A stretch of DNA of 64,000 bases from Pempheris klunzingeri (taxonomy: Eukaryota; Chordata; Actinopteri; Acropomatiformes; Pempheridae). This document shows positions 30,033 through 59,481 of the stretch, in pieces. The stretch's first letter is position 1, and every line of letters begins with the position of its first letter. Under the pieces are notes generated by a model. It worked only from the letters and a program-made list of their open reading frames with translations, had not been told where the DNA came from and did not search any database. The DNA lies in NCBI RefSeq assembly GCF_042242105.1, contig NC_092028.1, positions 10,897,338 through 10,961,337 on the forward strand, read 5' to 3'. Made by a program: the position numbers and the translations under genes.

Positions 30033-30033
<1 letters not shown>

Positions 30034-30219: not shown

Positions 30220-30221
<2 letters not shown>

Positions 30222-30250: not shown

Positions 30251-30255
<5 letters not shown>

Positions 30256-32707: not shown

Positions 32708-34254
32708 GTGAGGGAGTCCAAGAGGGAGGGAAGACCGAAGGGATTAGCGGCTAATCCAGTGCACGGACAATCCTGGAGGAGCCTTATCTTTCTTCCAGGA
32801 TGATTCCGACAAAACAGTTGCTGGATTACGGCACCTTACTTTATTGCCCTTTTCAAGAAAGTGTCACCCACCTTCTTCCTTTGCTCTGATAACCTCTCAA
32901 AGATCAGGTGTCTTGGCTGCAAAGGGACCAGGGAACTGAAGACAAAGAAGCGGGGTGGCAGGCCCGGTGACAGGATGTCGCATGGACAGTGTGGTTCCAC
33001 ACATGGATAAACCTCTTTAGTGGGAGACGGTGCATGGCAGAGGACCCCCCGCTCTCAAGACAAGTACAGAACAACGGTATTGGATGAGATGCGCAAATTC
33101 CTCTCAGACGTTAGGACCATTCTATTGAATACACAAGCAAAAAGGATTTTCAGTTCAGTAAACGCAGGGATGAAATTGTCCAATTAATGATTCGCCATGT
33201 ATGTGTTTCATTATTACTTGAGAACAGTGCATGGGATGCCAAAGTAAGGTTAAAACCACAAAGAATTGAGTAAGACCTATTTAGTAACATAAACTCAGGT
33301 GCCAATCCTTGTAGGCCAACCTGAAACCTAAATAATGAGGTTTATAATAATAGTGAGAAGGGAAGCCACAGTCAGGTGGAAATGGGCTGCTAAAGAGGCT
33401 CAATCCAATTACACAGAGTTATTTATATGTTTATTTATATCTGCCTATCTGCTATTTAAAAGCTTGTTTTACAAGATTTGGGCAAAAGGAAAATTACAAG
33501 TACTTTTGCTTTACAAGGCTTATTGGTGAGGTGGTCCAGGGCTGCAAGCAAAGCATAAGTTGAGACTTTGAGACAGTTTTCTCTGTCTGAACAGATATAA
33601 AAATTAAGTGAACACAGTGTAAAGAAAAGTCTGTTTTCTTTGTCACTCAAACCAATGGAGTTGTTTGGCTGAAATCACATCTCAATGTATTTGCAGTTGT
33701 GGTAAGACTTTGTATTTTTAAACTCTCATTAACCGAATCAAATCCAGCCAGCCCCGAACTCTCCAACCACAAAAACAATGTATGACCTTGTAATTCTTCT
33801 TCTTTGTTATTTTGTCATAACTGAAAGCCGCTGTTGTGCACAAGACGGGAGCTCAGTGTTTAATCATTCTGGACAGACCTGCGGTACGAGCTGTGCATGT
33901 GAGAGAGAGAGAGAGAGAAAGCTGAGAACAGGACAGGATGTTGATGGAGACTTGAGTGATTCTATATCCATACTGGCATCTTTCATTGTAGATCCAAAAG
34001 GAGAAACCGTAGGCCGATAGTGGATGAATAGCTGGCTCTGACTGTGTGGAGAATGGATTATACACACATTCTCTGCTAACTGAGCAACCACATATTTGTG
34101 TTTTCTGTTCTTACTGTCCTGGTATTTAATTTTTTTTCTCTCTTTCTGATTTTACAGTGAACCCTGAACTGGAATTTACACTTGACTGACATGTAATCAG
34201 AGCTCAGACACTCTCATTCGAATTAAAGGGAAATTACACAGCTTTCCTGCCACC

Positions 34255-37200: not shown

Positions 37201-38052
37201 ACCCAAATCCAACTCCTATTACACAAACATTCTATGTAGTTTACCTACATTGAGATTTTTCTTCTAGGATTTTGAGGATGTCATCTACAAAGTTCAAGTT
37301 CTACAAAGTTGCAGAATGTCTCTGAGATGTTTTCTCTGTCTTATCATTAGTTCAGATCATTTCAGTCACTTCAGTGCATTTTCTTTTTCTGTCTGTTTGC
37401 AGGTCTGCAGTCTGGATTTCTCACCCTGCCCCGCCTCTCGCGCCTTGACAGACAGTTTCAAGATGGTGACCACCGTAAAGGGTCTCTACCAGACGGTGGT
37501 GGCATCACACTGACACGCTCAGACTCCCTCACCTCATTTACTGTAGACCTTGGCCCTTCCCTTATGACTGAGGTGCTGAGCTTGATTGACAACCCCAGCT
37601 GCCTTCAGATGTCCAATTGCAGCAAGGCAGTAGGTGAGGGAACAGGAGAGGAAGAGGAAGAGGAAGAAGAAGAAGAAGACGACAGCTCTCTGACAGAGAC
37701 GCCTGTGCAGAGCCCTGGGGTGACTTCACCCAACCCCTCCATGTGTAGCGGGAAATTTAGCAGGAACATGAACTACAGGGGGCGGTCTGGTAGTTCTAAC
37801 TGGACGGAGCAAGAAGAGGAGAGGAGGTCACCGACGACACCAACTGTGTGCACGAGGTCTCCTGAGAGAGCCGAGCCTGGAATGGAGGCAGAAAGGTTTC
37901 AGAGGGCAGCTGACGTGCTGTCCCGTCATTATGGTGGAGGATCCTTCACAAAGGAAACAAGGATGAGCAGTAACACCACCTCTCCTGCTTTTTCTCACAG
38001 CCACAAAACACAATTTGCCTTTTCTGACGAGGAGGAAGAAATCAAAGTCTAG
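34255..38052 (+). CDS. cdc42ep1: Cdc42 effector protein 1 (BORG/CEP family)
   Basis: BORG proteins bind GTP-loaded Cdc42 (and TC10) through a CRIB motif and organise septins and actin under the plasma membrane. Two coding exons, 34255-34708 and 37403-38052, join in phase 1 to give 367 aa plus stop. The ATG is in a perfect Kozak context (GCCACCATGAG), in an exon whose acceptor is TTTTACAG before 34158. The CRIB motif ISPPLGDFRHTMHVG is at residues 31-45, after a basic stretch (GKRRFKSE). Later BORG-like blocks include NAVSLPQL, LTLPRLSRLD and SFTVDLGPSLMTEVLSL. An acidic run (about 12 Glu, then Asp) lies at 37650-37683, and the tail FSDEEEEIKV is acidic. The heptad repeats of mammalian CDC42EP1 are not seen. 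Position beside card10 supports CDC42EP1 over its paralogues. Confidence 0.9.
36426..36498. repeat. Perfect 33-34 bp hairpin (inverted repeat) in the cdc42ep1 intron
   Basis: Arm 36426-36458 (starting CCACTGAAAGGGGGCAGAAG) is the exact reverse complement of 36466-36498, leaving a 5-7 nt loop (AAGATAT). The right end is itself part of a second small palindrome, AGTGGTATCATACCACT, at about 36494-36510. No TIR family or target-site duplication is recognised. Confidence 0.9.
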
Positions 38053-38620
38053 ATGGGGACACTCTTTCTGAGACTTCATTGATCCAGTAAAACCATAATA
38101 ACTTTCCAGTAACCTGACTTCTGCAGAGAGGCTTAAAGTTGTTGCAGTTGTTATATTCTTCCTTCCTCTCATGCATCCACATGAGGGCATCATTGACCAA
38201 CCACCAGATCCTGGTCTGTATCCAGTTTCTGCAAGATATGGAAGGATATTTGATGCTGATCTTGACCCTGGACTTGGAGTGATTTGATTTTTAAAAAATG
38301 GATTCTTGTCAAGACAAACAATTAATTATGGCATTTTACTTTTGTCAGTAACAAAGGTTTAAAAGTGAAAGAAGTATGTTTATTATAATCACAACAGTTG
38401 ACTGAATACAGGATGAAACAATGAATCTGGAATGAACTTTGATTTTTTTACACACTGTAGATAACTATTCTCTACATAACCATAATGTTCAACAGTAAAA
38501 TGTGTTTTATATGAATAAAGATGTTCAGGTTCAAAGGTCTGAGGGGCCAAGATGGACTTGAAATTTAAGGAACACTGTTAACAATTGTGTTAAAACATCT
38601 GTACATTGTAAATAAATGGA
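38053..38620 (+). terminator. cdc42ep1: cdc42ep1 3' UTR with candidate poly(A) signals
   Basis: Untranslated sequence after the stop has GAATAAAG near 38513 and GTAAATAAATGG near 38609, either of which could direct cleavage; a further TAATAAAGG lies near 38777. From there to about 39950 I see no gene or known repeat. Confidence 0.45.
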
Positions 38621-39893
38621 CTGTAATCAGGAATAATGGCATTATCTTAAAACTAAGATAGTTGTACAATTACAGCTCATATTCCTCCACAGTGATCACT
38701 GACCTGTACCATGTTTTTAGGATTAAGCATGAAGCTTTTATAATTTTTTTTTTCCTAAAATGATATAGCTGATGTAATAAAGGCCTGAACTGCAATATAC
38801 ATGTAATTTCAGCTTTCATTTTTAAAAACATTGTAAACTCACATCAAATTCCCTCAACAACTGTTCATTTTGTTTTGGCCTAAAGCAAAAAAATCAAAGA
38901 CAATCTAAACTCTCAAACTGTGACTCCAAATAAAAGTCACATCTCAGACATCATAGACTAGACCAGAGCTAAAATGTTGGCTAAACTTCTTTATTTGAGT
39001 TTATCAGACACCTCTGCTATCAGGCCACATAACTGATAAAAGATAAAGCAAAAATCATCTGAGATGTTTACTGCTCTCCATAAAACTAGACCTTCTACTG
39101 TACCTCAATTAAACCTATTCATTGCCCTTCTTATCTTGCTCTACAACCCAAAACTCTTTTATGATGTCTGGTTAAAGGCCAGAGAAGACTAAAGGTAACA
39201 CCATATACTGTAAATGTTTTGCATAACACTGTTGTATGGATAATGTTAACATGAAAAGTATTTCTTAATTCCTCCATTTAAGTTTATCAGAAATGACTGC
39301 TAGCAGATCTCAAATTAGGTCAACTATGACAACTAAAAAAGCATATCAAATCAATCATATTTACATAAAATGCATTATTTGATTTATAGTTTGACCAGCA
39401 GGGCACCAGAATAAGGTGGAATCATAAAACACTGACATACAAATTATCACATTATGAAGTTGTATTGCAGCTGTAAAGAGCAACATTAGCATTCAATTGG
39501 AGTCATATTTCTGGCCCCCTTGACAAATTTAAGTCCAATCTATCCCTTTAGTTTGGTTACCACCAACTTAAGAGGGAAATATCTGGCTCCTTAGATGATA
39601 ATTGCTCCACTAGGGTTAGGGTTAAGCTACAGTTAACTGTGTCTGTCTTCTGTTTATTGCTGTCCAGGTAGCTTACCATGTGTTTTTAGAGCTTTTTGTT
39701 GTTAAAACCATACTTATGAAAACAAAAAGCTGAAAGACCCTGTAATATTAGTAATATTAATAGCAGAGGCAAAGTGATGAGTCAGGTGAAAGTTCTCTGT
39801 GGGTTTGTCTCTGCCAGTGATCCTTCAAATTATACGATTACTAAATTGTTTTACTGTTGTGATAAAAGTGTTATCGCTGCTGTGTTATCAGGT

Positions 39894-39902
39894 TTCAAGG
39901 AA
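39894..39902 (+). promoter_or_regulatory. GAS-type STAT site upstream of GVIN copy 1
   Basis: TTCAAGGAA fits the TTCNNNGAA gamma-activated-site consensus, 54 bp before the candidate first ATG of copy 1. A nine-base degenerate motif is weak evidence alone, but the family is interferon-inducible and copy 2 has a GAS site too. Confidence 0.3.
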
Positions 39903-39955
39903 AATGAGTTACAGATGTCCTGCTTTCTCTTATCGCTGTTAGTGGTTTAAAAGAA

Positions 39956-40084
39956 ATGCAGATGCCGAACCCCTCAGCTCATCACATCACGCTGGAAAAG
40001 CAGAAAGGACGAAATAGTGAGGAGCAACTTCAGACAAGTTATGAACTTTTGGTGGGTGCATCTGATTTCCCAAAACTTCATAAG
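39956..40084 (+). CDS. Candidate alternative first coding exon of GVIN copy 1
   Basis: From an ATG at 39956 a 43-codon frame (MQMPNPSAHHITLEKQKGRN...) stays open to a consensus donor (CATAAG|GTAAAT) in phase 0. The giant exon of copy 1 opens at 41740 in phase 0, so the two could be spliced directly to give 1671 aa. The encoded peptide matches no domain I know. It would need a transcript to confirm; the other model starts at 40944. Confidence 0.35.
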
Positions 40085-40247
40085 GTAAATTTTCACATTG
40101 CAATATAGACGACATTTTGCCTGAAATTACATATTTATTCATATGCATTAATAGTCTATTATTTTACTTGTTTAACTGACTTTGATTTATGACTCTGTAA
40201 AGTATGAAGAGCAAATAAGGTGCAAAGAACCACAGCAATACGGCAGC

Positions 40248-40299
40248 TGGAGGAGAGTCTGAGGTCAAATCTGTAATGCCATCTGTGACAAATGAAAAG
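40248..40299 (+). pseudogene. Relic linker exon of GVIN copy 1 with altered donor
   Basis: The open segment GGESEVKSVMPSVTNEK matches the second half of the linker exon at 53358-53469 of copy 2 (GGESDINSLPSVTKEK). The expected GAAAG|GTAAC donor is replaced by GAAAAGG|GCAAT, so only a weak GC donor remains. The first half of the exon is not recognisable. Confidence 0.55.
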
Positions 40300-40643
40300 G
40301 GCAATTTAAAGTTTAAAAATAAACTTCAATAGAAATATAGCAATGACCTGACCAATTATTTTGTTTTGATACTGATCACGTGTATTCTGATATTCCGACA
40401 TGGACCTACAGTATGCTCTATTCATTTTTAATAGTCATCATTATTATGCATTTGTTCTGTAACAATTGACTTTTAGGGCTACCAACTTGCATTTTGTTGA
40501 TATATATTATTTACCCTATCAATTAGCACACCACTGTATGTTGTTATTCTGCAGTTTTCTTGTTTTGTGTTGCAAAAAAAAACAATACTAGACTTAAGAT
40601 CTCAATGTGGAGAATTAATATATAGAATCACCTATTTTCTCAG

Positions 40644-40752
40644 TGTGATCCAGTGAATTAATCCAGTGAAGCTCAACTTTCTGAGAAGAGTGATGAAAGC
40701 ACAGGAAGAGAGTCTGAAATCAAGTCTGTACCATCTGCAACCAGTGAGAAAG
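40644..40752 (+). pseudogene. Linker exon of GVIN copy 1 with in-frame stop
   Basis: Between acceptor TTTTCTCAG and donor GAAAG|GTAAC lies a 109-nt exon of the same phase (0 to 1) as the linker exons of copy 2. It reads CDPVN, then TAA at 40659-40661, then an otherwise intact frame ending ESEIKSVPSATSEK. In copy 2 this codon is GAG or GAA. The exon would terminate any protein started upstream, unless skipped. Confidence 0.75.
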
Positions 40753-40943
40753 GTAACATTTTAATGAATGAATGAATTAATTAATTAATCAATAGAAGAA
40801 TAACGATAATTATTCAATTCAGAGCATTTAAAATTATTTAAGAGTGAATATTATTAATAGAAATAAAGATGCATTGGTTCAATTGCTCATTGATCTGTCC
40901 TTCATATAATGCAGTTCATTATTTTACCTCAGGTATCTTAAAT

Positions 40944-43900
40944 ATGGATATGAGTGGAAGCAAGGTAAAAACATTTAATTCACACAATCTTTTGGACTAT
41001 TTATTTCATATTATATTGTAATTCATTATGATTGCTTTCTGTTTTAGCGGCAGTGATTGACTCAAGTTCTGCTGCTCTTAATCTAAGCTCTGTGCTTTAT
41101 TTTCCGATGCCTGTGTATCTCTGTCATACGTGATATGTATTTCAGCAGCGAAGGCGAAAAAAATAACAGATTTGTCTGGCCATCGCATCACTTATCCAGA
41201 TACAGCAAGTCTGATAGAGTAGGAAACAATGCAGCTGCCATGGCCCCTTCAAAATGTTCTATATTTTTGTTTCTGTTAATTTTTTCGCCTTACTGACATG
41301 TGAAATCTGTTGTGGGTCACTGCTGTCTGTCCAGTTTTTCCCTGTGTTTTCCCATCTCCTGTTTGCTTGTTTTAGTGTGTGTGTATCTGTGAAGTGGGCA
41401 TTATGCCGATTGCTGTTTACATGTGAAAGCTGTACACTCAGAAGACTGTGGAATAAGAAATAGCAGATAGGACTGCAACCCTACAGATCTTACAGTGATT
41501 TGCCTGTCTTTGCAAATTAGATTAGAGGTTTTATGTTTTGGGGAATGAGAAATGATATGTTTGCCTTCTATGCTGATATCTAATTTTAATGACCTTGGTG
41601 GTTTTGAAATTCAAGTAAAAAAAAAATTGATTGAACAACAGTATCTGCATTGATTACTTGATTTTACATTCATATGCCCATTATTTCAAGTCAGTCTTAG
41701 TGGATTTTTTTTAATTGATTATTATTTGCTCATTTACAGCAGTTGGTGAAGATTTCTGAAGAGTTCAACAGGAATGAACAATTTCAGAGAGAAAATGAAA
41801 CACTGCTTGGCAGACTTCATCTTCAAGATGAACACAAGTTGACACCAGCTGATTTTCTTAAAATTGGTCCATCTGTGAAACAAGACTGTGACACATCTGA
41901 GAAAGATCTAGCTCACACTTTTCTACAGAGGTTGTTGATGTTAGATTACAGAGCCAGATATATCCCTGTAAAACAAGACAGTCCTGAGTTGAGCCAGTCA
42001 AAGCCTGTTCCACAGTTTGATACTTTTCAGACGGACGAGAATGACTTAGATGCTCTTTTTGGCACCAGTGTTGACTCTGATCAGTCAAAACAGAGTCATG
42101 TGCATCCAATGGATGTACAAATGGCAGTATTTCAGTGCTCAGACAGCTTTTTTAGACAGAACATGATTACAAAGCTATCACAATGTCAGTATGCTGTACC
42201 GTTGCTTGTTCCTGACCCAGTCACAATGGATATTGACTTTCCTCTGTGGACATTCAGACAAATAAGAAAAAGCTGGAAGATAATTCAAATCAAAATGAAC
42301 TCAAACACTGTCACCATGAAGAGTATGCCCATCTGCAAAGCAGAGACACCAATGGTGTCATTTTTCCGCCTTGGTTCACTATCACAGTCAAAATCTCAGC
42401 TGATGAACACTCTGATCAACGACCGTCACAGCACCTTCTTCCACAGAAACTGCCCAGGAAGCACCAAGTCTCGTCATTTGATGGATGGAGTGGCAGAGAT
42501 TGCCTGGTACTGTCCTGCTGGAAAGCACAATGATGCCTTCACTGACTGCATTGCCTTCTGTAATCTTCATGGTGATGCTTTGTTGATTGAAAAACAGCGT
42601 GACATACTGACTGAAAAATCTTCAGTCAATGTTGTTCTTGTGCCAACTCTGGAAAAAGGTGACAAAAGTACTACAGTTATCTCAGACCTTTACAAGTCTC
42701 CTAAGCCTCTCATTATTCTCATTGCTGACAATGATTGTGGTACAGTTCAGATGAAAGAGGGAAAATACAAAATGGGCCTGAAAGACAGAAGCCAGTCAGA
42801 TGTTTCTGAAGAACTGAAAAAAATCATTCGCAAAATCTTGTCTGGACCACATGCATCTTTCCAGCTTGAAACCATGGCTGAGGTCTCTGGCATTAGAGTG
42901 GATGAAGGTGACTTAGTCTGCCAAAAAGGGAAATCTGCTGCAATGAAAGCAGTAAATTTGCTCAAGGGGATGGATGTTTCAAAGATCAAAGACACATTTC
43001 TTCCTTGTCAAGGCCAACTGTGGCATGAGTGGTGCAAAATAAAGAAGGAACTGTATCGCCTCAAAGGACACTTTGTTGAGCAGGACAAAAGTAAAAAGCA
43101 ACAGGAAATGATACAAATACGACAAAATCAATGCACCGCTTCTTGTAGCGAGCTGATGAAGTTGTTCATTGAAGGCCTCTCATCTTTGCCATCAACAGAA
43201 AAAGTGTATTTCCTGAAATGGACTCAGATCTTAATAGATGCCCTCTCCACAGACGATCTCTCTTCAATTCTCCAAAGCTATGATGACAAGTGGTCTGAGG
43301 TCTTGGCTTTAAAGAAGAAACATGACAAATCTGCTCAGCTAACAAAGAAGCAAGCTGAACTTGATCAAATATCAACAAAACTACAGTCAGCAACATTTGG
43401 CTTGGAGCACATCTTTAGAGAAATGGGACAGATCTATGAAGCCCATGCTTCTCTGCAGGACCAGACAAAGAGGGGATGGACTGATTGGTCTAAATACCCC
43501 GAGCTGGCTGCAGAGCTGATGATATCAGGACACCCAATGGAGCTGATGGATGGAGATGCAGGTCATGTGCCTTTAGTGTGGATCTCTAGTCTTTTAGATG
43601 AAGTCATTAAGAAACTGGGCAACAAGAGAGTTTTTGTTTTGTCAGTTTTGGGCGTACAAAGTAGTGGAAAATCAACAATGCTGAATGCCATGTTTGGGTT
43701 ACAGTTTGCAGTGAGTGCTGGCAGGTGCACCAAGGGTGCCTTCATGCAACTGGTGGAAGTGTCAGAAGAAATCAAGAAAGGCTTTCAGTGTGATTATGTT
43801 CTGGTGGTGGACACTGAAGGACTGCGTGCTCTCGAGTTGGCAGGTAGCGCCACTCTTAACCACGACAATGAACTGGCTACATTTGTTGTTGGTCTGGGAA

Positions 43901-46626
43901 ACATGACATTGATCAACATCTTTGGAGAGAATCCAGCTGACATGCAAGATGTTCTGCAGATTGTTGTTCAGGCTTTCATGAGGATGAGGAAAGTTAAACT
44001 TTCTCCAAGTTGTGTGTTTGTTCACCAGAATGTCACCGATATCGCAGCTGCAGAGAAAAACATGGATGGCAAGAGACGCTTGCAAGAAAAACTGGACCAA
44101 ATGGCCCAACTAGCAGCCAAAGAGGAGGTTTGTGATGCTGAGTGCTTCAGTGACGTCATTGCATTTGATGTGCAGAAAGACGTGAAATACTTTGCCCAAC
44201 TATGGGAGGGAAGTCCACCTATGGCTCCTCCAAATCCAGGTTACAGTGAGAGCATCCAAGAGCTGAAGAACTTCATTCTCTCCAAAGCTTCCAAGTCTGC
44301 AGGGATAACTCTTTCACAGTTCAAAAGCAACATTCAGGATCTGTGGAATGCGCTGATGAACGAAAACTTTGTTTTCAGTTTCAAAAACACCCTTGAAATT
44401 GCAGTGTACAGAAAACTTGAGTCCCAGTATGGGAAATGGACCTGGGCCCTGAGGAGCAGCATGTTGGCCATTGAAAACCAGCTTCATACTAGAATTGAAA
44501 ATGGAAAACTTGACAAGGTTGAGGCCGGTTATCTTCTCAAAGAAATTAGCAAAACTTATGGAGAAATCACAAAAGACATGACAAAGTACTTTAATGATGA
44601 CACGGACAAAGACATGTTGGTTCAGTGGCGAGGCCGATTTGAATTCAAAATCAAGGAGTTTCATGATGAACAAGTTAAAGGAGTTAAAAAGAAACTGGAT
44701 GTCGTTATACAGCAGAAGAATGCTTGTAAAAAGCTGGATGAAAAGAAAACAGAGTTTGAGAACAAACTGCTACAAGAGAGCAAAGAGCTTGCTCATCAGT
44801 TAAAAGACAAGGCCAAAGACGAAGAGGAACTTGAAAAGCAATTCAACTCTGTCTGGAAAGGCTTGGTTAGTGAACTAACTGCAAACACAACACCTATTGA
44901 GGATATCAACTTGGAAGAAGATCAGCTCAAAATCCTTGATGACCTCGGTATTGAATGGTCTTTTGTGAATAGATCCAAAAGCAGTGGCAGCTACAAGAAA
45001 ATATCAGAAGTTAGAGATTATTCAGATTATGTCATCCTCACCAAGTGCCAAGAGTTCCTCGAGACAAGACAACAATCCCAATATAATGAGAAGGGAAGCA
45101 AGGAAACACAACACTACACTAAGCAAGAAAAATCTTTTTTTACATCTGCCTTAAATTATGGCAGTAAGGTTGTCCAAAAAATGAGTGGAACAAGCTCAAC
45201 AACACTACAAAAAAACCAACAGAAATCATGCAGTGCTTTCCCGTTTGAAGAACAACAACAGATCAGATCCTTCATTGACAAGGTTGTAAACCAGTCCCTT
45301 GATGCAATCAAAAGCAAACCTGTAGATACAAGAGGCTACAGTCCAACATACCTGCTAGAGGTGGCCAACAGTGTAAAACAAAAAATGACAGAGTTTGAAT
45401 CACAGAGAAAATACGCTCTGAAGAAGGAGTTTACAGTTGATCTCTTACTGTATGTATTCGACAGAGCAGAGAGTTGGCTCTCACAGTCACACATGAAATT
45501 CAAAATGAAAAACGATGCACTCATATATGTAGAAAGCAAGAAAATGCAATATTACAACATTTTCAGAAGCTTCTGCAAAGGAAACTCATCTGCTGTTGTG
45601 CTTGGAGAACTGATCTGTGAAAAACTGAAGATTTCCACTGTTGAGGCTGTCTGTAACAAGACTGCCATTGATCTTGCTGACGAGATGAGGTGCAGTCTAC
45701 CAGCATTCAGTGAAAACAGGTTGAACTTGGAGAAACATGTGTTGATGTCACTGGCAGAGGAAGAGGACTTTGATGGCTTTATCACCTACATCCGATGCCC
45801 AAGAAACCAAGTAGAGACTTTTATAAAAGAGGAAGTCAAGAAATACATCTTCACAGAACAAAGCGATAAAGCACAGAATATACTCAAGAAAAATGTTGAA
45901 GACATCAATAAGAGCATGAGTCTAGCATTATTTACTGCAACAGAGAATGCCAAAACCCAAGAAGGAGACATAGACATGTGGGTGGAGGAATTTTCCACTT
46001 TAATTAAAAATGATCTAACATTTGACCCTGTTTCTTGTAAAAACTTCAGTGACATAAACGATTTTGAATTTCTTAAAACAGAGATAGAGAATGGCCTTGT
46101 GTCCATCAAGAAGGAGATGAGCAGCCTCTCATTGTTTAAAATGAAAGAATTCAGGCTGAAGCCTGATGAAATCCTCATTGATCAGCTGTGTGACTGCTGC
46201 TGGGTGAAATGTCCTTTCTGTGCAGCTGTTTGTACCAACACAGACAAACATCACTATCCTCCTGATGAACACAATGTCCCCTTTCATCGGCCCTCTGGAA
46301 TTGAAGGATGGCACACTAGAGATACAGTGGAAATGGTTATCAATTTCTGCACAACATCAGTTGCAAGTGATAGATATTTCCGCCCCCATCATGATCGAGA
46401 TAAGAAAATTCCATATAAAACGTACAAAGATGCTGGGGACATGTATGCTACATGGAAGATTACTCCTGATGGGTCTAAGCTGACATACTGGAAATGGTTT
46501 ATATGTCGATTTCAAAAGCAACTGGAAGACCACCATGACTTAAAATTCCAGGGCAGAGGAGAGATTCCTAGTGAGTGGAGAGACTACAGTAAACAAGAGG
46601 CGATTGAAAGTCTTGACGAAATGTAG
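40944..46626 (+). CDS. gvin1-like: Very large interferon-inducible GTPase (GVIN/VLIG-like), copy 1
   Basis: GVIN/VLIG proteins are giant interferon-induced GTPases of the dynamin-like superfamily, acting in cell-autonomous immunity. The giant exon 41740-46626 is open throughout. The VLIG-type G domain has the P-loop GVQSSGKS at 43651-43674 (residue 637 counted from codon 41743), the switch DTEG at 43810 (690) and HQNV at 44023 (761), probably near the base-recognition loop. A Lys/Glu-rich helical region follows. The C-terminus has a Cys/His cluster (CDCCWVKCPFCAAVC, then several His) and TYWKWFICRFQKQLE. I start at ATG 40944 in a short exon (40933-40964, donor AAG|GTAAAA), giving 1635 aa; an alternative first exon is 39956-40084. 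The acceptor at 41740 is a tandem CAGCAG. The giant exon opens on TTG, so it has no start of its own at that end. Confidence 0.85.
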
Positions 46627-48180
46627 AAACTGCTGAAGGAACAACTGAGCTCCACTCAAAGTAACAGAAACCCAAACTGTTCAAAAGAAATTAGTTTTGA
46701 TCTGATTGATGGAGTGCAACAATAGCAATGATGAGGATGAAGCATCTCTAAAACGCCTGGAAGAGCACAATTTTAGGTTAATTCTATTACTTACAGAATA
46801 TGAGATGAAATATAACACTGAGTTGTAAGAAGTCCTAAAAATGACCTGAAGAAGCACAACGTACTTACTGTATGTGTATGACAAATGATGTGCTTATTAG
46901 GATGAGGATAAGGATGATTTTAAGAATGAATCATTATGTTTTTATTTAATTAGAAATTTGCATTTATGATGAGAAGACGAGGAAAATAAATGAATGAATT
47001 TTTAAAGGAAAAAATGCTCATAGAAGGAATAAGGAGGACGTTTCTAAGTTGTCAGATATTAAGGACACATTTTCATTATTATCTTTTTACTTTTATATAC
47101 AAATCTCATCAAACAGACGTGACATGAAACTATTTTAAGTTGTATGCTTTTCTTTAAAAAAAAAGATCCAGGATTTATATTGTTATAAGGCGATCTCTAT
47201 TCATCCAAAGATATGAAGGTTTCTTTGGAAATTCAAGATGAATGAAATGTTTCTCTTACAGCTGTTTAAAGTTAAAATGGCAAAGAAAGGTGTAAGATGT
47301 CGCTTTCAGAAGTGTATATGGTTTCATTTAGTCAAAATAACAAATGGCAGCCATTTTTAGTGGCAATTTGTATTATTATGTTTTTTCTGCAATTTAAATC
47401 GAATTAAAAGGCATGATGATGAGCAACACATTTTAAAATGTTGATAAAAGTTGGATATGAATATCTTAATTATATTATAAGCTGATTTTAAGAGGATTTG
47501 TCAGAATAATGGCACATAATTGATATGATGCATGAATCATTGAAATTGAATTAGTGTTGTTGAATGTGAAAACACATAAAACTTATAGTTGAAAGTTGAG
47601 TTTCACAAAAAATTGACATCTTATGTTAAAAAAACAAACAATGGAATTCTTGTGAAGTTCTTTGGTCATGCTCATCTGAAAATCATTTTCACAGAAATAT
47701 TTTCATCTTTAAATTTCATCTTTATTTTTATCTTTCCTAAGGTTGTATGTTATTCAAAGTATTTTGTGAACGATGCTTTATCTTTTTGATTTTTAACAAT
47801 CTTATTTTGCCCATATTGGATATTTTCTTTCTTTTTTTGCTTAGTCATTCTTCTGTCATTGCTACTGCACATTGATATACATAATTAATAACAGATATAT
47901 CAGTCTTTGTGAAATTTTTGGATATTTTCTTTTATTGTAATAAAAAAGACCCTACATACATTGGAGTTTAAATCTCTTCTGTTTCTAAGCAGCATTATGA
48001 GAGGACCAGATTTTTCTCAAACTGTGGAAATCAAGTGCATTTTATTTGTATAATCCAAAACCACAAAGCGTGTAAATTGTGTCAGCTAATTTTTAGTTAG
48101 TCCTGAGTTGATCTCATCCGTGATAGTTTTAGTAAAATTCAACCTCTTCCTTTTATATAATTAAAGTCATCAGGAAACAG
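46627..48180 (+). terminator. 3' UTR and duplicated 3' flank of GVIN copy 1
   Basis: AATAAA occurs near 46986 and again near 47938 (GTAATAAAAAAGAC). Patches around 47200-47230, 47920-48010 and 48050-48120 match the flank of copy 2 at 59850-60720, including the sequence around its later AATAAA, so the duplication covers the 3' UTR. No coding content. Confidence 0.5.
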
Positions 48181-49550
48181 GAGAATATCACAGTTTTGTG
48201 AATCTTTTGAGAGCATCTGACTCATTCCCTTGTTTAATCATTCACTCAGTATGGATTATCATTACTTTGCATTTTTCACTGACAGGTGAAAGGTCATGCT
48301 GAACTGCACACTAACTCAAGGTATGTAGCAACTACAGTGGACACTGTTGCAATGGACTACATCCACTAGAGGGAGCTCATTTCCATGCAATTATACCTAG
48401 AATGGGACAGATGCTGTTGATCCCCTAGATATATTTCTACAGTTCTGCAGCCTTTTCTAAGATGGACAGAACTTGCAAGAGGCAAGTGTTTGTTCATCAT
48501 TTATTAACGACATGTGGTTTTTATTAACTAATGGTTTATAGATGACTTACAACACATTTGTGAAATATTAACATTTACAGTCATTTACAAAAGTATATTT
48601 AATGTTGTGTTGGTGATTAGTTCGTCATTAGCTAATGGCTTATAATTGATTTACGACCCTTATGACTTTTATAATAAAGTGTTGCCCTGAAAGGTTGAGA
48701 CTTCATCACTTCTTCTGTTACAGTGCCCCTGAGAGCTAAATGCCCTGAAACTTAAGAAAGAGCATGAATTCCATAATTAGATAAGTCACAAACCATAGCA
48801 ACAATAAGCATTTCCCATACTTTTTAGTGCCACCTGATAATGTTTCTATAGTCGTTGCTACTTGCATTGGATTTCCATATTTGGTTGTGGCTTGTATTTG
48901 GGGAGAGAGACAACAACCTTGAGGGGAATCAGTGGAGCTGCAATTACTTTTAGATCAACTTTAAAATGACAGATGAGCCTCCCTACAAGCAGGAGTAGCT
49001 GAATGAAGAATATAGAAGAGAGGCTGTTGACAGACAGAGGCTGTTTTCTTCTTCACTTCACTAGTATCATTAAATATTACTAAAGGAGTCAAGGCTGAAA
49101 TAATTGAACACTTCAGAGGTTTTACTCCTGGCAACTTGGACAGTAATGGAGTGTTTCCAAAGCTTGGCTATCTTCTGTAGTTTAGGAGATTGTGTAAAGA
49201 TACTGTAAGATCTGGAGAGCTGGTCCACACAGGTTTACGGTAGGCCTACCTAACCACAGTTGTCAGGTCCTGAGCTCTAGTCTTACTATGGCTGAAGAGG
49301 TTTGTCACTCTCTTTCCACTGATATCAATAATATATCAATAAATGCTGGAGAAACTGCATTGCCTTCTCTTACTCTTCCATCTGTGCAGTAAACTCATAA
49401 TGATTAAATCTTAGATATTCTAGACATTCTTATTGCAGCTGTAACTTTGCAGGTTACATATGTTCAGTGTTGAGCATGTGTTTGGCAGAGGTTAGGGAGT
49501 TTGACTTTTGAATAGATTGACCACACCCCTGTTTCCCTCTCAATCACATG
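48180..49550. other. Spacer between the GVIN genes, with a diverged dispersed repeat
   Basis: No gene is seen. 48500-48690 holds degenerate internal repetition (TAATGGTTTATAGATGACTT and TAATGGCTTATAATTGATTT) ending TAATAAAGTGTTGCCCTGAA, which looks like a common teleost interspersed repeat that I cannot name. Confidence 0.4.
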
Positions 49551-49552
49551 GT

Positions 49553-49735
49553 TTCTGGGAAGTTAGGTCAGTCAGACTTTCGTTTTTGTCACCACTGATT
49601 TACAAATAACATGCATGCAGAGTTTCTCAGTCCCTTAAACTATCACGTTGCATCAGATTTGTTATGAGCAGGTGGGAGGTGCTTGTGAGGGGAGGACTCA
49701 GCATTAATGGTAACTCTCTACATACAGTATATTTA
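49553..49735 (+). promoter_or_regulatory. Interferon-type promoter of GVIN copy 2: GAS, ISRE-like site and TATA box
   Basis: TTCTGGGAA at 49553-49561 is a full GAS (STAT1-type) site. ACTTTCGTTTTTG at 49576-49588 resembles an ISRE/IRF element with two deviations. TATATTTA at 49728-49735 is a plausible TATA box about 25-30 bp before the presumed TSS. The order and spacing suit an IFN-gamma-responsive gene, but activity is inferred. Confidence 0.5.
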
Positions 49736-49757
49736 GAAAGTGGACTGGAAGGCTTTC

Positions 49758-49813
49758 TGACAAGGCAACCATACCTACACAGAGCAGGCAGAGCTAAGGA
49801 GGCGTAACAAAAG
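49758..49813 (+). other. Presumed non-coding first exon of GVIN copy 2
   Basis: Downstream of the TATA box, a purine-rich segment ends in the strong donor AAAAG|GTGAGT (exon end 49813). It would splice to the acceptor GTGTCAG before 50367. The TSS is placed only by distance from the TATA box. Confidence 0.5.
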
Positions 49814-49966
49814 GTGAGTTTATACACACTTATATATAGTTGTGTGTTTGTGTTGTACAGACACACAGATCTTAGCATGTGTACTTTTTATAACAGACTT
49901 TTTCAAACAACATCAGTTTCATACATATTTCTGCTTTGCTGCTCTGACTTTTTTGAGTGCTGGCAT

Positions 49967-49968
<2 letters not shown>

Positions 49969-50002
<34 letters not shown>
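49969..50002. repeat. (CA)n microsatellite
   Basis: About 17 CA units in the first intron of GVIN copy 2. Confidence 0.95.
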
Positions 50003-50004
<2 letters not shown>

Positions 50005-50371
50005 CACACACAGAGACATACACACACAGACAGACAAATTCATCTTTCTTATACTTGTGAGTACCCTCAATGACAGGAAGCATGCTCTATCCAGTAACCC
50101 TAACATTAACCATCACAACTTAATGCCTGACCCAACCCTACACTCTTGGCATGGAAACTGCTCCTGTTTTAACCCAACCTAAACCAAATTCTAACCTTGA
50201 CCTTAAAACTAAGCCTTAACCTACAACCCATCCTTTGCAACATATCACCAGAAGTAAAGTCATCCTCATATTTTATTTCTAAGATGTGATTCTTTTATTC
50301 ATTTTGTCAAATGATTTCAATTCCATTTGATAGTTTCCTGTTTTGTTTGTCTGAATGTCGTGTCAGCAAAG

Positions 50372-50386
50372 ATGGACAGCAGATAA
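50372..50386 (+). other. Minimal upstream ORF (MDSR-stop) just before the GVIN copy 2 start
   Basis: The first ATG after the acceptor opens ATG GAC AGC AGA TAA, ending one base before the ATG at 50388. The region AAAATGGAGGCTGATAAAATG is a 15-bp duplication that repeats the start codon in frame (MEADKMEAD). Confidence 0.6.
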
Positions 50387-50387
50387 A

Positions 50388-53300
50388 ATGGAGGCTGATA
50401 AAATGGAGGCAGACAACCATGACAACACTGCAGCTTCAGGAAGAGATTCTGAGGCAAAATCACCAAATGACAAAGGTCAGCTAAAATTTTGAAAATAGTA
50501 TCTCAAAAACTGAGGATGGTTAGCCAACCACATATGTTTGCTTATGCTGATCCTGTGTGTTATGTTTTTTCTGACATGACCCTGCAGCAGCTAAAATTGA
50601 TGAAAGTGCTGACAAAGTCAAGGTAAATCCAAAATCTTTTCCCCTACATTAGCATTATGTTATTGCAAGATTATTTATTAGTTATTGTAAGAATCCATCC
50701 CTACATTTGAAGTTAATACAGTCCAACTTGCATTTTGTAGTTTATATTGTTTTACCTTGCTACTTATTTGTTATAAGTGATTGTTTAATAACCTTGCCTA
50801 TTTTTTAGTGCGATTCAGTGAATGAACCTGGTGATGCTCAACTCTCAGAGAGGAATGATACAAGAGAGTATGAAATCAAGTCTGTACCATCGGAAGTCAA
50901 TGACAAAGGTAATATTTTAATCCATTACTGATTGTACAGTGGGCAGCACAGTGGCATGGTGCTTTGCACTGTTGCCTCACAGCAAGAAGGTTCCAGTTTC
51001 AAATCCCGGTTTAAACTTGGAATCTTTCTGTGTGGAGTTTGCATGTTCTCCCCATGCTAGCGTGGGTTCAATCCAAAAGATATGCAAGCTTGGTTAATTG
51101 TTAACTCTAAACTTGCGTGGGCTCAATCCAAAAGACATGCAAGCTTGGTTAATTGTTAACTCTAAATTGGTGTAGGTGTGAGTGGTTGTTTGTCTCTGTA
51201 TGTGGCCCTGTGATTGGCTGGCGACCAGGCCAGGGTGTACCACGCCTCTCGCCTGAAGTCACCTGGGATTGGCTCCAGCTCCCCCGCAACCCTGATGGAT
51301 AAGCGGTATAGATAATGGATGGATGGATGGATGGATGGATTTTGTCACTCTTTATAACTCGAATGATTCTTTCATTTTGTTTCAGTGATGCCTGGACTCA
51401 CACTTGTGTTAATTGGTGACACAAATTCCGTTGAGAAGGGATCAAAAAATATCTTACTTGACCATGACGAGCCAGCAAATGAGTTTTCATCCAAACTGTA
51501 TGATTTGTGTGGTCGGCACATCTCAGTCATTAACATGCTTGGTCTCCAAAACATTGACAAATGGCCATTAAATCAAGGAATTCATGCCTTTCTCTTACTG
51601 CTACCAAATAGTCTGCATAACAGCCATTACAGTTCAGGAGTGCAGTGGTTAGAAAAAGCTTTTGGGAAAGGATCACTTGCTTATTTAATGACAGTTGTAA
51701 CTCACAAGTCAGATGAAAAGTGTGAAAATGCATTGACCGACCTGAAAATCAACAGTACTTTTGTTGAAAAAAGATACCACACATGTACAAGAAATATGAT
51801 GGATGAAAGAGAGATTATAGCTCTGCTGGAAAAAATAGACATCATGGTCTCTGAAAATGATCCCCACTGTTACGATGGACTGGTGTGTGATGAGAATAAA
51901 GAGCAGAATGACGACGTGGACCACAAATCCTATCAAGCAGAAAGGATGGATTCCTCAGTGTTTCAGCAAAATGAAACAGGTGAGGGTTTATGTCGGTTGT
52001 CAAAGATTACCCCTACATGGCTTCAGAGAAATAAGCTGGAGAGAAATTTTACACTAACAATCAAATGACAATGTGACGACAATTTTCTAATGTGAAAGAG
52101 GTCGCTCATAGTGATGATCCTACAACAAATAATTTCTATTTATACTGTTTTGGTTCATGCTCACTACTCTCACAGGGTCATTTTCAACCAGAACCAGATG
52201 TTTCCCTCAGGATTTAGTAGAAACTACAGTACAGACAAACACATGAGCTAAAAGAGACTTACTTTAGCCTGGTGGCCAAAACAAATGAATATCATTGTTG
52301 CTCCATAACTAATAGATGTATAAATACACAATGGCAAGTTCTGCATGTGAACTGAAAAGATGATATGTCGATCCTGTGTTAACAAACGTCAGCTGCCCCA
52401 AAGTGTCCAAAAATCACTTATCAGTTAAGGAAAAAGCCAATATTTTGATTTGAAGAAGCATATATGTGTATATATATGTATATACACTACTCACAAAAAG
52501 TTAGGGATATTCAACTTTCGGGTGAAATTTATCGAAAATGTAAAAAGTTAATGCTACAGTGATATTATATCATGAAAGTAGAGCATTTAAGTAGAAGCAT
52601 GCAATGGTAATTTCTTCATCTCAAACAATTTAATGAAAGAAAAGCTAACAACAGTGGTGGGTACATCATATATGTCTCAATAAATTGGGATGTGGCCAAA
52701 GGACGTCCACTCCTCTCCTTTCTGTGACTCTTCCAGTCACTCTGTATCACTGTTACAACCTCCTGATGACACTCTGTGACCCTCTAAGCTCAGTGAACAC
52801 CTCCGTCTGAGGACTTCCTGTTTGAAGCCTCGCAATGCCGAGGTGCTGTTGATCAATTGTTAGGTGTCGTCTTGGTCTCATGATGTCAGAATGTGAACAG
52901 CATGATGAGGAGGACTGTTTAAATACCAATTCTAACTGAAGCAGGAAATGTATTGGTCGATTGATGGATCAAACCTGTTGTGAATTTTGCTGTTAAGCTT
53001 CTTGTTAGAGAACAGCAACTTGTGCAAAAAGTACTGAAACACTGAACAGTTGGACATGTGCATTCAAAGGTTTAGAGAAGGTCACATTAAGTTTGCCTGT
53101 AAAGGTTCTAATGCAATTTAGGTTCATCCTGAAATTTCACCCGAAAGCCGAATATCCCTAACTTTTTGTGAGTAGTGTATATAGAAACAACTTGATCTTT
53201 TGAAATCTGCTTTTCTTACATTGCCCTGCAGTAGAGGAGTTGCAGGAGAATGCAACTGAAATCACAGTAAAGGTAAGATTTGTTCACTTCCATTAGTCAC

Positions 53301-56300
53301 TAGCGGTCACCACTATTTATGTTAAATGATGTTAAATGAAATTACTCCTTGTTTTAGTGTGATCCAGTGAATGAGCCTGGTGATGATGTTAAACACTTGG
53401 AGAAGAATTTCGACAAAACAGGAGGAGAGTCTGATATAAATTCTTTGCCATCTGTAACCAAGGAGAAAGGTAACGTTTTAATGAAAATTTTGATTATGCA
53501 GTAACATCAGTTTAGAAGTTACACGAGTGTGCAGTCCAACAGCTCAGACTGTTTCAAAAGTTACCCAAGAATGTGAGGATGACTGAATTTTCTTTCATTT
53601 TTGCATTGCATTTCTGCAAAATCTGTTTATCTACTAACATTGTGTATGCTGAACAATACAAAATGTCTGCATTCTCTACATGTTGAACAATACACAATAC
53701 CTTTTAAATATACAAAGAACAACAAAGTCTTAAAATCTTACTTATGTGACCAAAACAATTTCTTTGTTTGATCCTGCAATCTGCTTGTTGTTACATCACC
53801 CTGCAGTAGATGGGCTGGAAGACAGCACAGCTAACTCAGAGGTAAAGGTGCCATCTTTGATCCTCAGTAGCCATCACCATGCAGAAAAGTTTGTATTTCT
53901 CACCTACTGTAACCTACCTAGAGTAACCTACCTGTAACTCTACCTTATTACCTATTACATATTAAACACATTACCTATATCACAACTGTGTACTGAACTG
54001 AAGATAGGAGCTGGTTCATTTTTAGTCTTGATGGGGAAAGATTTTGACTCCCCGACCCACCTACTTTAACAAACACTTTTGCAGAAAAGTTTATTTCTTC
54101 TCACTAAAACACAAACCTGCTGGAATTTAATTTGTGCATATTTTCCCCCTTACTTTTATTTTTGGTATACCACTGTGTGTAATCTCAGTGGTTCGAACCT
54201 ACTTACCTGAAGCTTATATAAAATCACTTGTTTTTTGTAGTGTGATCCAGGGAATGGTGTTAATCACTTAGACAAGAATGATGACAACAGCACAGTGGGA
54301 GGAACAGCTGAAGTCACAAGTGTACCATCTGCAACCAGTGAGAAAGGTAACATTTTGATTAATTACTGTACAATAACATGGAACAGTCAAAAAGAGAATT
54401 TATAAAGTTTATAACATCCAAAATTGTGTTGAGAGAACATTATCTTCTTATAATTCAGTTGATAATTCTCCTGCAGGTACCTTAGATGTGGATATTAGTG
54501 GAAACAAGGACAACGTAAGAAACTCAACTACTTAAATTTCTACTTTCAACTACTTCAACGTTTCTTAAGCACTATTTCTTTCATGTCCTACTGCATTATA
54601 TCATTATTTTTTATGTATTCACAGCATTCAGTGACAATATCTGAAGAGTTCAACAGGAAGAAACAATTTCAGAGAGAAAATGAAACAGTGCTTGGCAGAC
54701 TTCACCTTCAAGATGAACGCAAGTTAACACCAGCAGATTTTCTTAAAATTGGTCCATCTGTGAAACAAGACTGTGACACATCTGAGAAAGATCTAGCTCA
54801 CACTTTTCTACAGAGGTTGTTGATGTTAGACTACAGAGCCAGATATATCCCTGTAAAACAAGACAGTCCTGAGTTGAGCCAGTCAAAGCCTGCTCCACAG
54901 TTTGACACTTTTCAGACGGACGAAAATGACTTAGATGCTTTTTACAGAACCAGTGCTGACTCTGATCAGTCAAAACAGAGTCATGTACATCCAATGGATG
55001 TACAAATGGCAGTATTTCAGTGCTCAGACAGCTTTTTTAGACAGAACATGATTACAAAGCTATCACAATGTCAGTATGCTGTACCGTTGCTTGTTCCTGA
55101 CCCAGTCACAATGGATATTGACTTTCCTCTGTGGACATTCAGACAAATAAGAAAAAGCTGGAAGATAATTCAAATCAAAATGAACTCAAACACTGTCACC
55201 ATGAAGAGTATGCCCATCTGCAAAGCAGAGACGCCAATGGTGTCATTTTTCCGCCTTGGTTCACTATCACAGTCAAAATCTCAGCTGATGAACACTCTGA
55301 TCAACGACCGTCACAGCACCTTCTTCCACAGAAACTGCCCAGGAAGCACCAAGTCTCGTCATTTGATGGATGGAGTGGCAGAGATTGCCTGGTACTGTCC
55401 TGCTGGAAAGCACAATGATGCCTTCACTGACTGCGTTGCCTTCTGTAATCTTCATGGTGATGCTTTGTTGATTGAAAAACAGCGTGACATACTGACTGAA
55501 AAATCTTCAGTCAATGTTGTTCTTGTGCCAACTCTGGAAAAAGGTGACAAAAGTACTACAGTTATCTCAACCCTTCTCAAGTCTCAAAAGCCCCTCATTT
55601 GTCTCATTGTTGATGATAATTGTGATGCTGTGGAGACAACAAAGGGAAAATACAAAATGGGTCTGAAAGACAGAAGCCAGTCAGATGTTTCTGAAGAACT
55701 GAAAAAAATCATTCGCAAAATCTTGTCTGGACCACATGCATCTTTCCAACTTGAAACCATGGCTGAGGTCTCTGGCATTAGAGTGGATGAAGGTGACTTA
55801 GTCTGCCAAAAAGGGAAATCTGCTGCAATGAAAGCAGTAAATTTGCTCAAGGGGATGGATGTTTCAAAGATCAAAGACACATTTCTTCCTTGTCAAGGCC
55901 AACTGTGGCATGAGTGGTGCAAAATAAAGAAGGAACTGTATCACCTCAAAGGACACATTGAGATGGAGAAATGTAAAAAGCAACAGGAAATGATACAAGT
56001 ACGACAAAATCAATGCACCGCTTCTTGTAGCGAGCTGATGAAGTTGTTCATTGAAGGCCTCTCATCTTTGACATCAACAGAAAAAGTGTATTTCCTGAAA
56101 TGGACTCAGATCTTAATAGATGCCCTCTCCACAGACGATCTCTCTTCAATTCTCCAAAGCTATGATGACAAGTGGTCTGAGGTCTTGGCTTTAAAGAAGA
56201 AACGTGACAAATCTGCTCAGCTAACAAAGAAGCAAGCTGAACTTGATCAAATATCAACAAAACTACAGTCAGCAACATTTGGCTTGGAGCACATCTTTAG

Positions 56301-59300
56301 AGAAATGGGACAGATCTATGAAGCCCATGCTTCTCTGCAGGACCAGACAAAGAGGGGATGGACTGATTGGTCTAAATACCCTAAGCTGGCTGCAGAGCTG
56401 ATGATATCAGGACACCCAATGGAGCTGATGGATGGAGACGCAGGTCATGTGCCTTTAGTGTGGATCTCTAGTCTTTTAGATGAAGTCATTAAGAAACTGG
56501 GCAACAAGAGAGTTTTTGTTTTGTCAGTTTTGGGCGTACAAAGTAGTGGAAAATCAACAATGCTGAATGCCATGTTTGGGTTACAGTTTGCAGTGAGTGC
56601 TGGCAGGTGCACCAAGGGTGCCTTCATGCAACTGGTGGAAATGTCAGAAGAAATCAAGAAAGGCTTTCAGTGTGATTATGTTCTGGTGGTGGACACTGAA
56701 GGACTGCGTGCTCTTGAGTTGGCAGGTAGCGCCACTCTTCATCACGACAATGAACTGGCTACATTTGTTGTTGGTCTGGGAAACATGACATTGATCAACA
56801 TCTTTGGAGAGAATCCAGCTGACATGCAAGATGTTCTGCAGATTGTTGTTCAGGCTTTCATGAGGATGAGGAAAGTTAAACTTTCTCCAAGTTGTGTGTT
56901 TGTTCACCAGAATGTCACCGATATCGCAGCTGCAGAGAAAAACATGGATGGCAAGAGACGCTTGCAAGAAAAACTGGACCAAATGGCCCAACTAGCAGCC
57001 AAAGAGGAGGTTTGTGATGCTGAGTGCTTCAGTGACGTCATTGCATTTGATGTGCAGAAAGACGTGAAATACTTTGCCCAACTATGGGAGGGAAGTCCAC
57101 CTATGGCTCCTCCAAATCCAGGTTACAGTGAGAGCATCCAAGAGCTGAAGAACTTCATTCACTCCAAAGTTTCCAAGTCTGCAGGGATAACTCTTTCACA
57201 GTTCAAAAGCAAGATTCAGGATCTCTGGAATGCCCTGTTGAATGAACAGTTTGTTTTCAGTTTCAAAAACACCCTTGAAATTGCAGTGTACAGAAAACTT
57301 GAGGTACAATATGGGAACTGGACCTGGGCCCTGAGGAGCAGCATGTTGGCCATTGAAAACCAGCTTCATACCAGAATTGAAAATGGAAAACTTCACAAGG
57401 TTGAGCTCAGTTATCTGTTCAAAGAAACGAGCAAAACCTATGAAAAGATCAAAAAAGATATAACAACGTACTTTGATGATGACAGAGACAAAGACATGTT
57501 GGTTCAGTGGCGAGGCCGATTTGACAGCAAAATCAAGGAGTTTCATGAGGAACAAGTTAAAGGAGTTAAAAAGAAACTGGATGTTGTTATAGAGCAGAAG
57601 AATGCTCGCAAAAAGCTGGATGAAAAGAAAACAGAGTTTGAGAACAAGCTGCTACAGAAGAGCAAAGAGCTTGCTCATCAGTTAAAAGACAAGGCCAAAG
57701 ATGAAGAGGAACTTGAAAAGCAATTCAACTCTGTCTGGAGTTCCTGGGTTGGTGAACTAACAGCAGATGCAAAACCTATTGAGGATATCAACTTGGAAGA
57801 AGACCAAATATCCATCCTTCAAGAGCTTGGTATTGAATGGTCTCTTATAGCTGAATCCAAAAGCAGTGGCAGCTACATAGAAATAACCGAGATTGGAGAT
57901 TATTTCGATTATGTATCCCTCACTAAGCACCAAGATGTCTGTGACACAAGCCAACAATCTCAAGATGACCAGAGGGAAAACAATAACACAAAAGGTCGAG
58001 GAAAACCTTCACTATGGGCATCTTTTAAAAAGATATTTGAACTTTGGTCAACAAAGCAAGATGAAAAACGTACATCAAGACATTCTTTACCATATACAGA
58101 ACAACAACTGATCAGGTCCCTCATTGATAATGTTGTACAACAAACCATAGACATAATTAAGAGCAAACCTGTGGCTACAAGAGGCTACAGTCCAACATAC
58201 CTGCTAGAGGTGGCCAACAGTGTAAAAGAAAAAGTGACAGAGTTTGAATCACAGAGAAAATACGCTCTGAAGAAGGAGTTTACAGTTGATCTCTTACTGT
58301 ATGTATTTGGCAGAGCAGAGAGTTGGCTCTCACAGTCACACATGAAATTCAAGGTGAGCAATGATGCACTCACCTATTTAGAAAGCAAGAAAATGCAATA
58401 TTACAACATTTTCAAAAGCTTCTGCAAAGGAAACTCATCTGCTGTTGTGCTTGGAGAACTGATCTGTGAAAAACTGAAGATTTCCACTGTTGAGGCTGTC
58501 TGTAACAAGACTGCCATTGATCTTGCTGACGAGATGAGGTGCAGTCTACCAGCATTCAGAGGAAACAGGTTGAACTTGGAGAAACATGTGTTGAAGTCAC
58601 TGGCAGAGGAAGAGGACGTTGATGGCTTTATCACCTACATGCAACACCCAAGAAACCAAGTAGAGACTTTTATAAAAGAGGAAGTCAAGAAATACATCTT
58701 CACAGAACAAAGCGATAAAGCACAGAATATACTCAAGAAAAATGTTGAAGACATCAATAAGCGTATTAGTTGCGCTTTGTTTACTGCAACTAATAGTGTC
58801 CGAACTCAGAGAAGAGGCCCAGACATGTGGTTGGAGGAATTTTCTAGTTTGCTAAAAGATGATCTAACATTTGATACCATTTGTTGTCAAAACTTCAGTG
58901 ACATAAACAATTTTGACTTTCTAAAGGAAGAAATAGAAAAAGGCTTTTCGTCCATCAAGAAGGAGATGAGCAGCCTCTCACTGGATAAGATGAAGGAATT
59001 CAGGATGAAGCCTGATGAAATCCTCATCAACCAGCTGTGTAACTGCTGCTGGGTAAGATGTCCTTTCTGTGCAGCTGTTTGTACCAACACACTGAAAGAT
59101 CACAGTCCTGACAAACACAATGTCCCGTTTCATCGTCCAGCAGGGATTAAAGGATGGCACTATAGAAACACAGTGGAACCTGTAATTGATTTCTGCACAA
59201 CATCAGTTGCAAGTGATGGAAGTTTCTACCCCCATCATGACTCAGACAAGAGTATTCCTTTTAAACAATATCAAACTGCTGGGGACATGTATGCTACATG

Positions 59301-59481
59301 GGAGATTACCCCTGATGGGTCTAAGCTGACATACTGGAAATGGTTTGTATGTCGATTTCAAAAGCAACTTGAAGACTACCATAAATTAAAATTCCAGGGC
59401 AGAGGAGAGATTCCGAGTGAGTGGAGAAAACATAGTAAACGAGAAGCAATTAGAAGTCTGGATGAAATGTACAACCTGTAG
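50388..59481 (+). CDS. gvin1-like: AIG1/GIMAP-like pseudo-GTPase fused to a very large interferon-inducible GTPase (GVIN copy 2)
   Basis: Ten coding exons keep phase throughout: 50388-50475, 50588-50622, 50809-50908, 51386-51979, 53232-53272, 53358-53469, 53807-53841, 54241-54346, 54477-54514 and 54625-59481. They total 6006 nt (2001 aa plus stop). Residues 1-74 are acidic linker. Residues 75-272 form an AIG1/GIMAP-like domain without a working P-loop. Residues 273-383 are repeated linker units. From 384 the GVIN body begins, with P-loop GVQSSGKS at 1020-1027, DTEG at 1073, a long charged helical region, and a C-terminal Cys/His cluster (CNCCWVRCPFCAAVC). The giant exon is open throughout and near-identical in blocks to copy 1. 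Expected role: interferon-induced cytosolic defence GTPase. The fused front end is inferred from splice sites and phase, not from a transcript; a shorter protein from an internal promoter remains possible. Confidence 0.82.
50938..51340 (+). repeat. Dispersed teleost repeat ending in a (GGAT)n tract
   Basis: GGGCAGCACAGTGGCATGGT, GCACTGTTGCCTCACAGCAA, GTGTGGAGTTTGCATGTTCT, GATTGGCTGGCGACCAGGCC and GGATAAGCGGTATAGATAAT follow in the order of a very common fish interspersed repeat. A tetranucleotide tract (51316-51340) ends it. About 55 bp are duplicated in tandem inside (51061-51115 and 51116-51170). It lies in the intron before the AIG1-like exon. Confidence 0.8.
51386..51979 (+). CDS. Symmetric exon encoding a degenerate AIG1 (GIMAP) G domain
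   Basis: This exon of GVIN copy 2 runs from acceptor TTGTTTCAG to donor AAACAG|GTGAGG and is 594 nt, phase 1 at both ends. The fold is recognised from LTLVLIGDTNS at the start, HAFLLLLPNS, GVQWLEKAFGKGSLAYLMTV and VTHKSD (G4 position), then RYHTCTRNMMDEREIIALLE, the usual AIG1 C-terminal helix signature. The P-loop is lost: GDTNSVEKGS stands where GxxGxGKS is expected. The DxPG switch reads NMLG. It is therefore probably a non-hydrolysing domain used for binding. A chance GTPase-like match is unlikely given the ordered motifs. Confidence 0.72.
52483..53179. mobile_element. Non-autonomous Tc1/mariner-like element (MITE) with long TIRs
   Basis: The left end TACACTACTCACAAAAAGTT and about 28 further bases are repeated inverted at the right end (about 48 bp, with two adjacent mismatches). 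The element is about 700 bp and flanked by TA on both sides, as expected for mariner-type target-site duplication. No transposase frame is present. It sits in the intron after the AIG1-like exon of GVIN copy 2. Confidence 0.85.

Follow-up and report, generated by a model that had tools for sequence, protein, structure and literature searches.

A predicted GVIN-type gene of Pempheris klunzingeri with a degenerate AIG1 exon in its N-terminal exon array

Human GVIN1 forms coats on intracellular bacteria, and it requires an interferon-inducible co-factor in order to block actin tails (PMC11974893). The available text of that paper describes two large-GTPase domains in the protein, which is modelled to dimerise via its LG domains. 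For the GIMAP proteins, the accessible part of another paper describes dimer formation by GIMAP2 as GTP-induced and GIMAP7 as promoting GTP hydrolysis by GIMAP2 (PMC8201404). Multidomain AIG1 proteins are described, again in text available in part, from the snail Biomphalaria (PMC7053062) and from the lancelet (PMC12373286).

Here, a fish gene is described in which an AIG1 exon appears to precede a GVIN/VLIG body. It lies in a window, the whole stretch of 64,000 nucleotides that was analysed (C17:10897338-10961337 of the 646-Mb genome), which holds two tandem GVIN-type bodies on the plus strand, those of gene 1 and gene 2 (Table 1). Gene 2 has the giant body and two GTPase-like domains in common with human GVIN1. 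However, human GVIN1 is intronless and has no AIG1 in its domain order as described in the available text (PMC11974893), whereas gene 2 has nine upstream exons, including the AIG1 exon. With the snail and lancelet proteins gene 2 shares the joining of AIG1 to other modules, which in those animals are death domains or CARD, kinase, ARM and HINT. The pairing with a giant GTPase that is found in gene 2 is not among the combinations described in the accessible parts of those two papers (PMC7053062, PMC12373286). A literature search, for which most subscription papers were out of reach, found no description of the dead-AIG1 plus GVIN arrangement and no paper with GVIN1 and AIG1 together.

Exon structure of gene 2 and its tandem paralogue

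A sequence-only reading had proposed that gene 2 is a ten-exon GT-AG frame with consistent phases, and this was borne out, as every exon and border was found again. Its length, put at 2001 aa, holds if exon 7 stops at donor 53841; otherwise it is 2003 aa, the value read here. The donor at 53841, 6 nt earlier, scores 7.3 as compared to 4.1 for 53847, these and all other donor scores being from an approximate donor matrix. A single two-exon unit, duplicated and since diverged, makes up exons 2-3, 5-6 and 7-8; the likeness of its copies in DNA includes the splice signals and, for exons 3, 6 and 8, is seen in the protein as well. Introns of phase 1 separate the units. Exon 4, which starts 3.2 kb upstream of the gene 2 body, is placed between repeat unit 1 and repeat unit 2. 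Ahead of gene 1, a stretch similar to exon 1 is found at 40222-40272, and DNA that is 80% similar to exon 9 at about 40900-40965.

Table 1. Features of the two tandem genes (positions in the window) and of upstream modules at other GVIN loci
Feature	Position	Strand	Description
Repeat-unit relic upstream of gene 1	40644..40752	+	in-frame stop
Gene 1 (tandem paralogue), GVIN body	41746..46626	+	87% identical to exon 10 over best match
Gene 2, exon 1	50388..50475	+	start codon, acidic linker; ends phase 1
Gene 2, repeat unit 1	50588..50908	+	exon 2 (50588-50622, phase 1-0) and exon 3 (50809-50908, phase 0-1, CDSVNEPGD...)
Gene 2, exon 4	51386..51979	+	198 codons in symmetric phase 1-1, predicted to encode a degenerate AIG1 (GIMAP-type) domain
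Transposon-like insert, intron 4	52479..53183		52-nt terminal inverted repeats, 96% complementary
Gene 2, repeat unit 2	53232..53469	+	exon 5 (53232-53272) and exon 6 (53358-53469, CDPVNEPGD...)
Gene 2, repeat unit 3	53807..54346	+	exon 7 (53807-53847 or -53841) and exon 8 (54241-54346, CDPGNG...)
Gene 2, exon 9	54477..54514	+	13 codons, phase 1-0
Gene 2, exon 10	54625..59481	+	GVIN/VLIG body, 1618 aa, one exon
PYRIN exons	L057:1635-1908, L058:1649-1972 (C23 GVIN cluster)		each about 2 kb before a GVIN body
B-box and two FN3 exons	L054:925-2687 (C3)	-	upstream of GVIN/URGCP body

The body encoded by exon 10 scores over the curated cut-offs for both URGCP (360.2 versus 27 bits, 1e-107) and URGCP_GTPase (437.5 versus 55 bits, 5e-131). 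Its second GTPase domain reads GVQSSGKST, in agreement with the earlier view that the GVIN P-loop is intact. The first GTPase-like domain has a degenerate P-loop (SLSQSKS), and the first-domain P-loop is degenerate in the GVIN bodies of all nine loci in this genome. The contrast of a dead and a live GTPase in gene 2 is therefore not as unusual as it looks: within the GVIN body itself, a degenerate first GTPase-like domain precedes the intact one.

When the two tandem bodies are compared (41746-46623 and 54625-59478), dS is patchy and ranges from 0.008 to 0.37 over eight full 200-codon blocks, with an overall dN/dS of 0.565. Gene conversion in and near the GTPase region would be expected to leave dS patchy in this way.

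Exon 4 as an AIG1 domain

Exon 4 is, judging by profile comparisons, a real but degenerate AIG1 domain, homologous to GIMAP-type domains. A profile of AIG1 domains from the same genome, with 27 rows (30 loci were taken and three, short or with a stop, left out), scored exon 4 at 42.0 bits, as compared to 7.7 bits for the highest of 1000 shuffles. Using hhalign, exon 4 matched an alignment of 21 of these domains (six further loci, hand-picked and mostly near-duplicates, were left out) at 98.6% and an E-value of 5.4e-16 over residues 5-168. In these residues, and in being a one-exon domain, exon 4 is like the GIMAP/AIG1 family (structures of GIMAP1, 2, 4, 5 and 7). Exon 4 matches best in its C-terminal half.

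Searches of other kinds gave weaker matches or none. Pfam AIG1 (PF04548) matches exon 4 with an E-value of 1.3e-4 and 21.8 bits, under the curated cut-off of 27, and exon 4 is absent among the 88 matches of a whole-genome AIG1 family search (E<=0.001). A phmmer search of the PDB with exon 4 alone gave no match at E<=1, and a scan of viral contigs with exon 4 gave no match. AlphaFold, run with one sequence as input, returned a pLDDT of 39, too low for a usable structure. The nearest of the 27 AIG1 copies are 25-28% identical to exon 4, with 28% at most, and a tree in which exon 4 has a long terminal branch (4.2 changes per column) does not place its donor.

The motifs bear out part of what the sequence-only reading had said, namely that the P-loop and DxPG were lost and the other signatures kept. 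Both losses were found: at G1 and DxPG, GKTGxGKS has become GDTNSVEKGS and DTPG has become NMLG. More has been lost, however. About 20 residues are missing from the switch I region, about 13 are missing from the stretch after DxPG, and TRGD has become THKS at G4. The loss of G1, switch I, DxPG and G4 sets exon 4 apart from the GIMAP/AIG1 family.

These losses, together with that of the stretch following DxPG, weaken GTP-dependent dimerisation, and with it the earlier suggestion that the AIG1 part serves as a dimerisation module, as GIMAP2 dimers are GTP-induced in the available account (PMC8201404) and the switch regions of exon 4 are deleted. A reading in which the remnant dimerises with resident GIMAPs via the usual G interface, or else serves as a decoy that lures a GIMAP-directed pathogen factor, is held to be improbable. 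Possible partners would be many, as the genome gives at least 88 AIG1 matches (E<=0.001), and the action of GIMAP7 on GIMAP2 offers a precedent (PMC8201404, in its accessible part). Against dimerisation, but not against the decoy, stand the deleted or changed switch I, DxPG and following stretch, all of which an interface that depends on nucleotide would presumably require.

Probable membership of exon 4 in the gene and its possible role

At the DNA level, there is good support for the predicted gene structure of a dead AIG1 and a GVIN body. The fusion gene model, as first proposed, stands in that the frame is open, splice signals and phases agree, and both the homology and the repeat array were found. 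What speaks most strongly for what would be a genuine fusion is the place of exon 4 within the array of duplicated units, with copies on either side and relics before the tandem paralogue. In addition, the exon 4 donor ranks first among the 279 GT sites in 50000-54600 using the approximate donor matrix, the acceptor is pyrimidine-rich and the phase fits on both sides. Entry in phase 1 is common to exon 4 and to other AIG1 exons of this genome: 28 were tested, an acceptor candidate was present in 14 and in none of the remaining 14, and phase 1 was found in 13 of the 14 testable exons, several of which had more than one candidate.

Splice signals, phases and the place of exon 4 within the array all speak against its being a leftover within an intron, or a short AIG1 gene of its own, which the real GVIN transcript would skip or bypass so that the fusion would exist in the gene model only. 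The frame of exon 4, open despite very deep divergence, does so too. Some observations fit a leftover or separate gene. No AIG1 exon was found upstream of gene 1 by the AIG1 profile, and the Pfam AIG1 score is under its cut-off. With the donor unused, the exon 4 frame continues to a stop ending at 52068, and an AATAAA is present at 52679, though within the transposon-like insert. On balance, this explanation is considered unlikely.

The open frame can be set against neutral decay. When GIMAP exons were taken by neutral substitution to the divergence of exon 4, 0, 0, 1 and 0 of 2000 runs from four starting exons were free of stops. This speaks for past, not present, constraint on exon 4, because most of its divergence may predate the insertion. 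The codon score of exon 4 peaks in the right frame and, at 0.148, is under that of exons 3, 6 and 8 (0.25-0.32). The codon-score evidence is weak, since 2% of null pieces reach the score of exon 4 and the null stretch (16000-33000) may contain other exons. Exon 4 could be pictured as a cassette exon that has no function at present and is tolerated for being frame-neutral, and its 198 codons in phase 1-1, the lost nucleotide-binding motifs and the weak codon score would all suit this. However, neutral decay runs almost never stay open, an objection that is softened if the divergence is older than the insertion, and a functionless cassette is regarded as quite unlikely.

The reading that is preferred, with a probability of roughly 0.55, is that gene 2 is one teleost GVIN/VLIG-type gene into which exon shuffling brought an AIG1 (GIMAP-type) exon, and that the AIG1 part, its nucleotide-binding motifs lost, is a docking or regulatory module. 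Here, the AIG1 exon would have entered a phase-1 intron of the N-terminal exon array, and the inserted domain would have lost its nucleotide-binding motifs. The remnant, retained mainly for the sake of its C-terminal half, may then act near the N-terminus as a nucleotide-independent module by which the GVIN body is steered or gated. Docking without nucleotide is favoured because GTP-induced dimerisation is improbable for a remnant that has lost its switch regions. The intact GTPase of the GVIN body would drive coat assembly, as proposed for human GVIN1. As exon 4 is symmetric, its skipping would keep the frame, and both protein forms could be made if it is optionally spliced out. That exon 4 is in the mature mRNA, the order of these events and the function are what we infer from the DNA.

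If transcribed as modelled, gene 2 would bring two immune GTPase families together in one protein, and would show how GVINs may gain sensing or docking parts. Any interferon control is putative, as an exact ISRE core GAAANNGAAA occurs in neither 37390-41745 nor 44383-54675. An argument from interferon sites was dropped, as the matches were not near the 5' exons.

Possible N-terminal modules at other GVIN loci

There are nine GVIN-type loci in the genome (11 matches, with two loci giving two each). Two are covered by the window, and at the seven others 3.1-4.7 kb upstream of the body exon was read (3.1 kb for C4). Within these stretches, an AIG1 exon is found upstream of one of the nine. At the other GVIN loci, the AIG1 profile scored at best 4.6 bits upstream and 9.2 bits within the GVIN bodies.

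Modules of other kinds precede most of the remaining bodies. PYRIN exons, at 68.4 bits each, lie before two C23 loci, FN3 exons before two further C23 loci (L052 and L056), and the fifth shows a weak stretch of FN3 likeness for which Pfam gave nothing at E<=0.1. The C3 locus has a B-box with its FN3 exons (Table 1), and no recognisable module was seen in the 3.1 kb upstream of the C4 body. At L057, the PYRIN exon has a phase-1 end and is followed by a body exon for which an acceptor candidate of phase 1 is present, and the FN3 exons read at L056 and L054 are phase 1-1. A phase-1 acceptor candidate is present at all five C23 bodies; it is less clear, among several candidates, at the C3 and C4 bodies.

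Position, strand and phase, across gaps of about 1-4 kb, are what suggest splicing of the PYRIN, FN3 and B-box exons to the GVIN bodies; alternatively, a separate PYRIN or FN3 gene may lie upstream of a GVIN body. The exons at L057 and L058 suggest PYRIN-GVIN proteins that could link to inflammasomes. Exon 4 may exemplify a swapping of N-terminal modules on GVIN bodies and, with the PYRIN and FN3 exons at the sister GVINs, it poses a testable question, which is whether the N-terminal module sets the coat target or the triggered pathway. A wider and rather doubtful extension is that teleost GVINs are a modular receptor-effector class, in which a phase-1 entry takes PYRIN, FN3, B-box/FN3 or dead AIG1, the AIG1 form being an integrated bait or adaptor that would link GIMAP biology to GVIN coat formation.

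Two further loci on C23 are of unusual form. At C23:5.81 Mb, a single open frame of 1868 aa (L034:4315-9921) has AIG1 stretches near both ends, with a long middle between them that looks coiled-coil-like by eye. At C23:13.417 Mb, one GVIN body is spread over two frames (L045/L050, open frames of 794 and 838 aa), and this is either a frameshifted copy or an assembly error.
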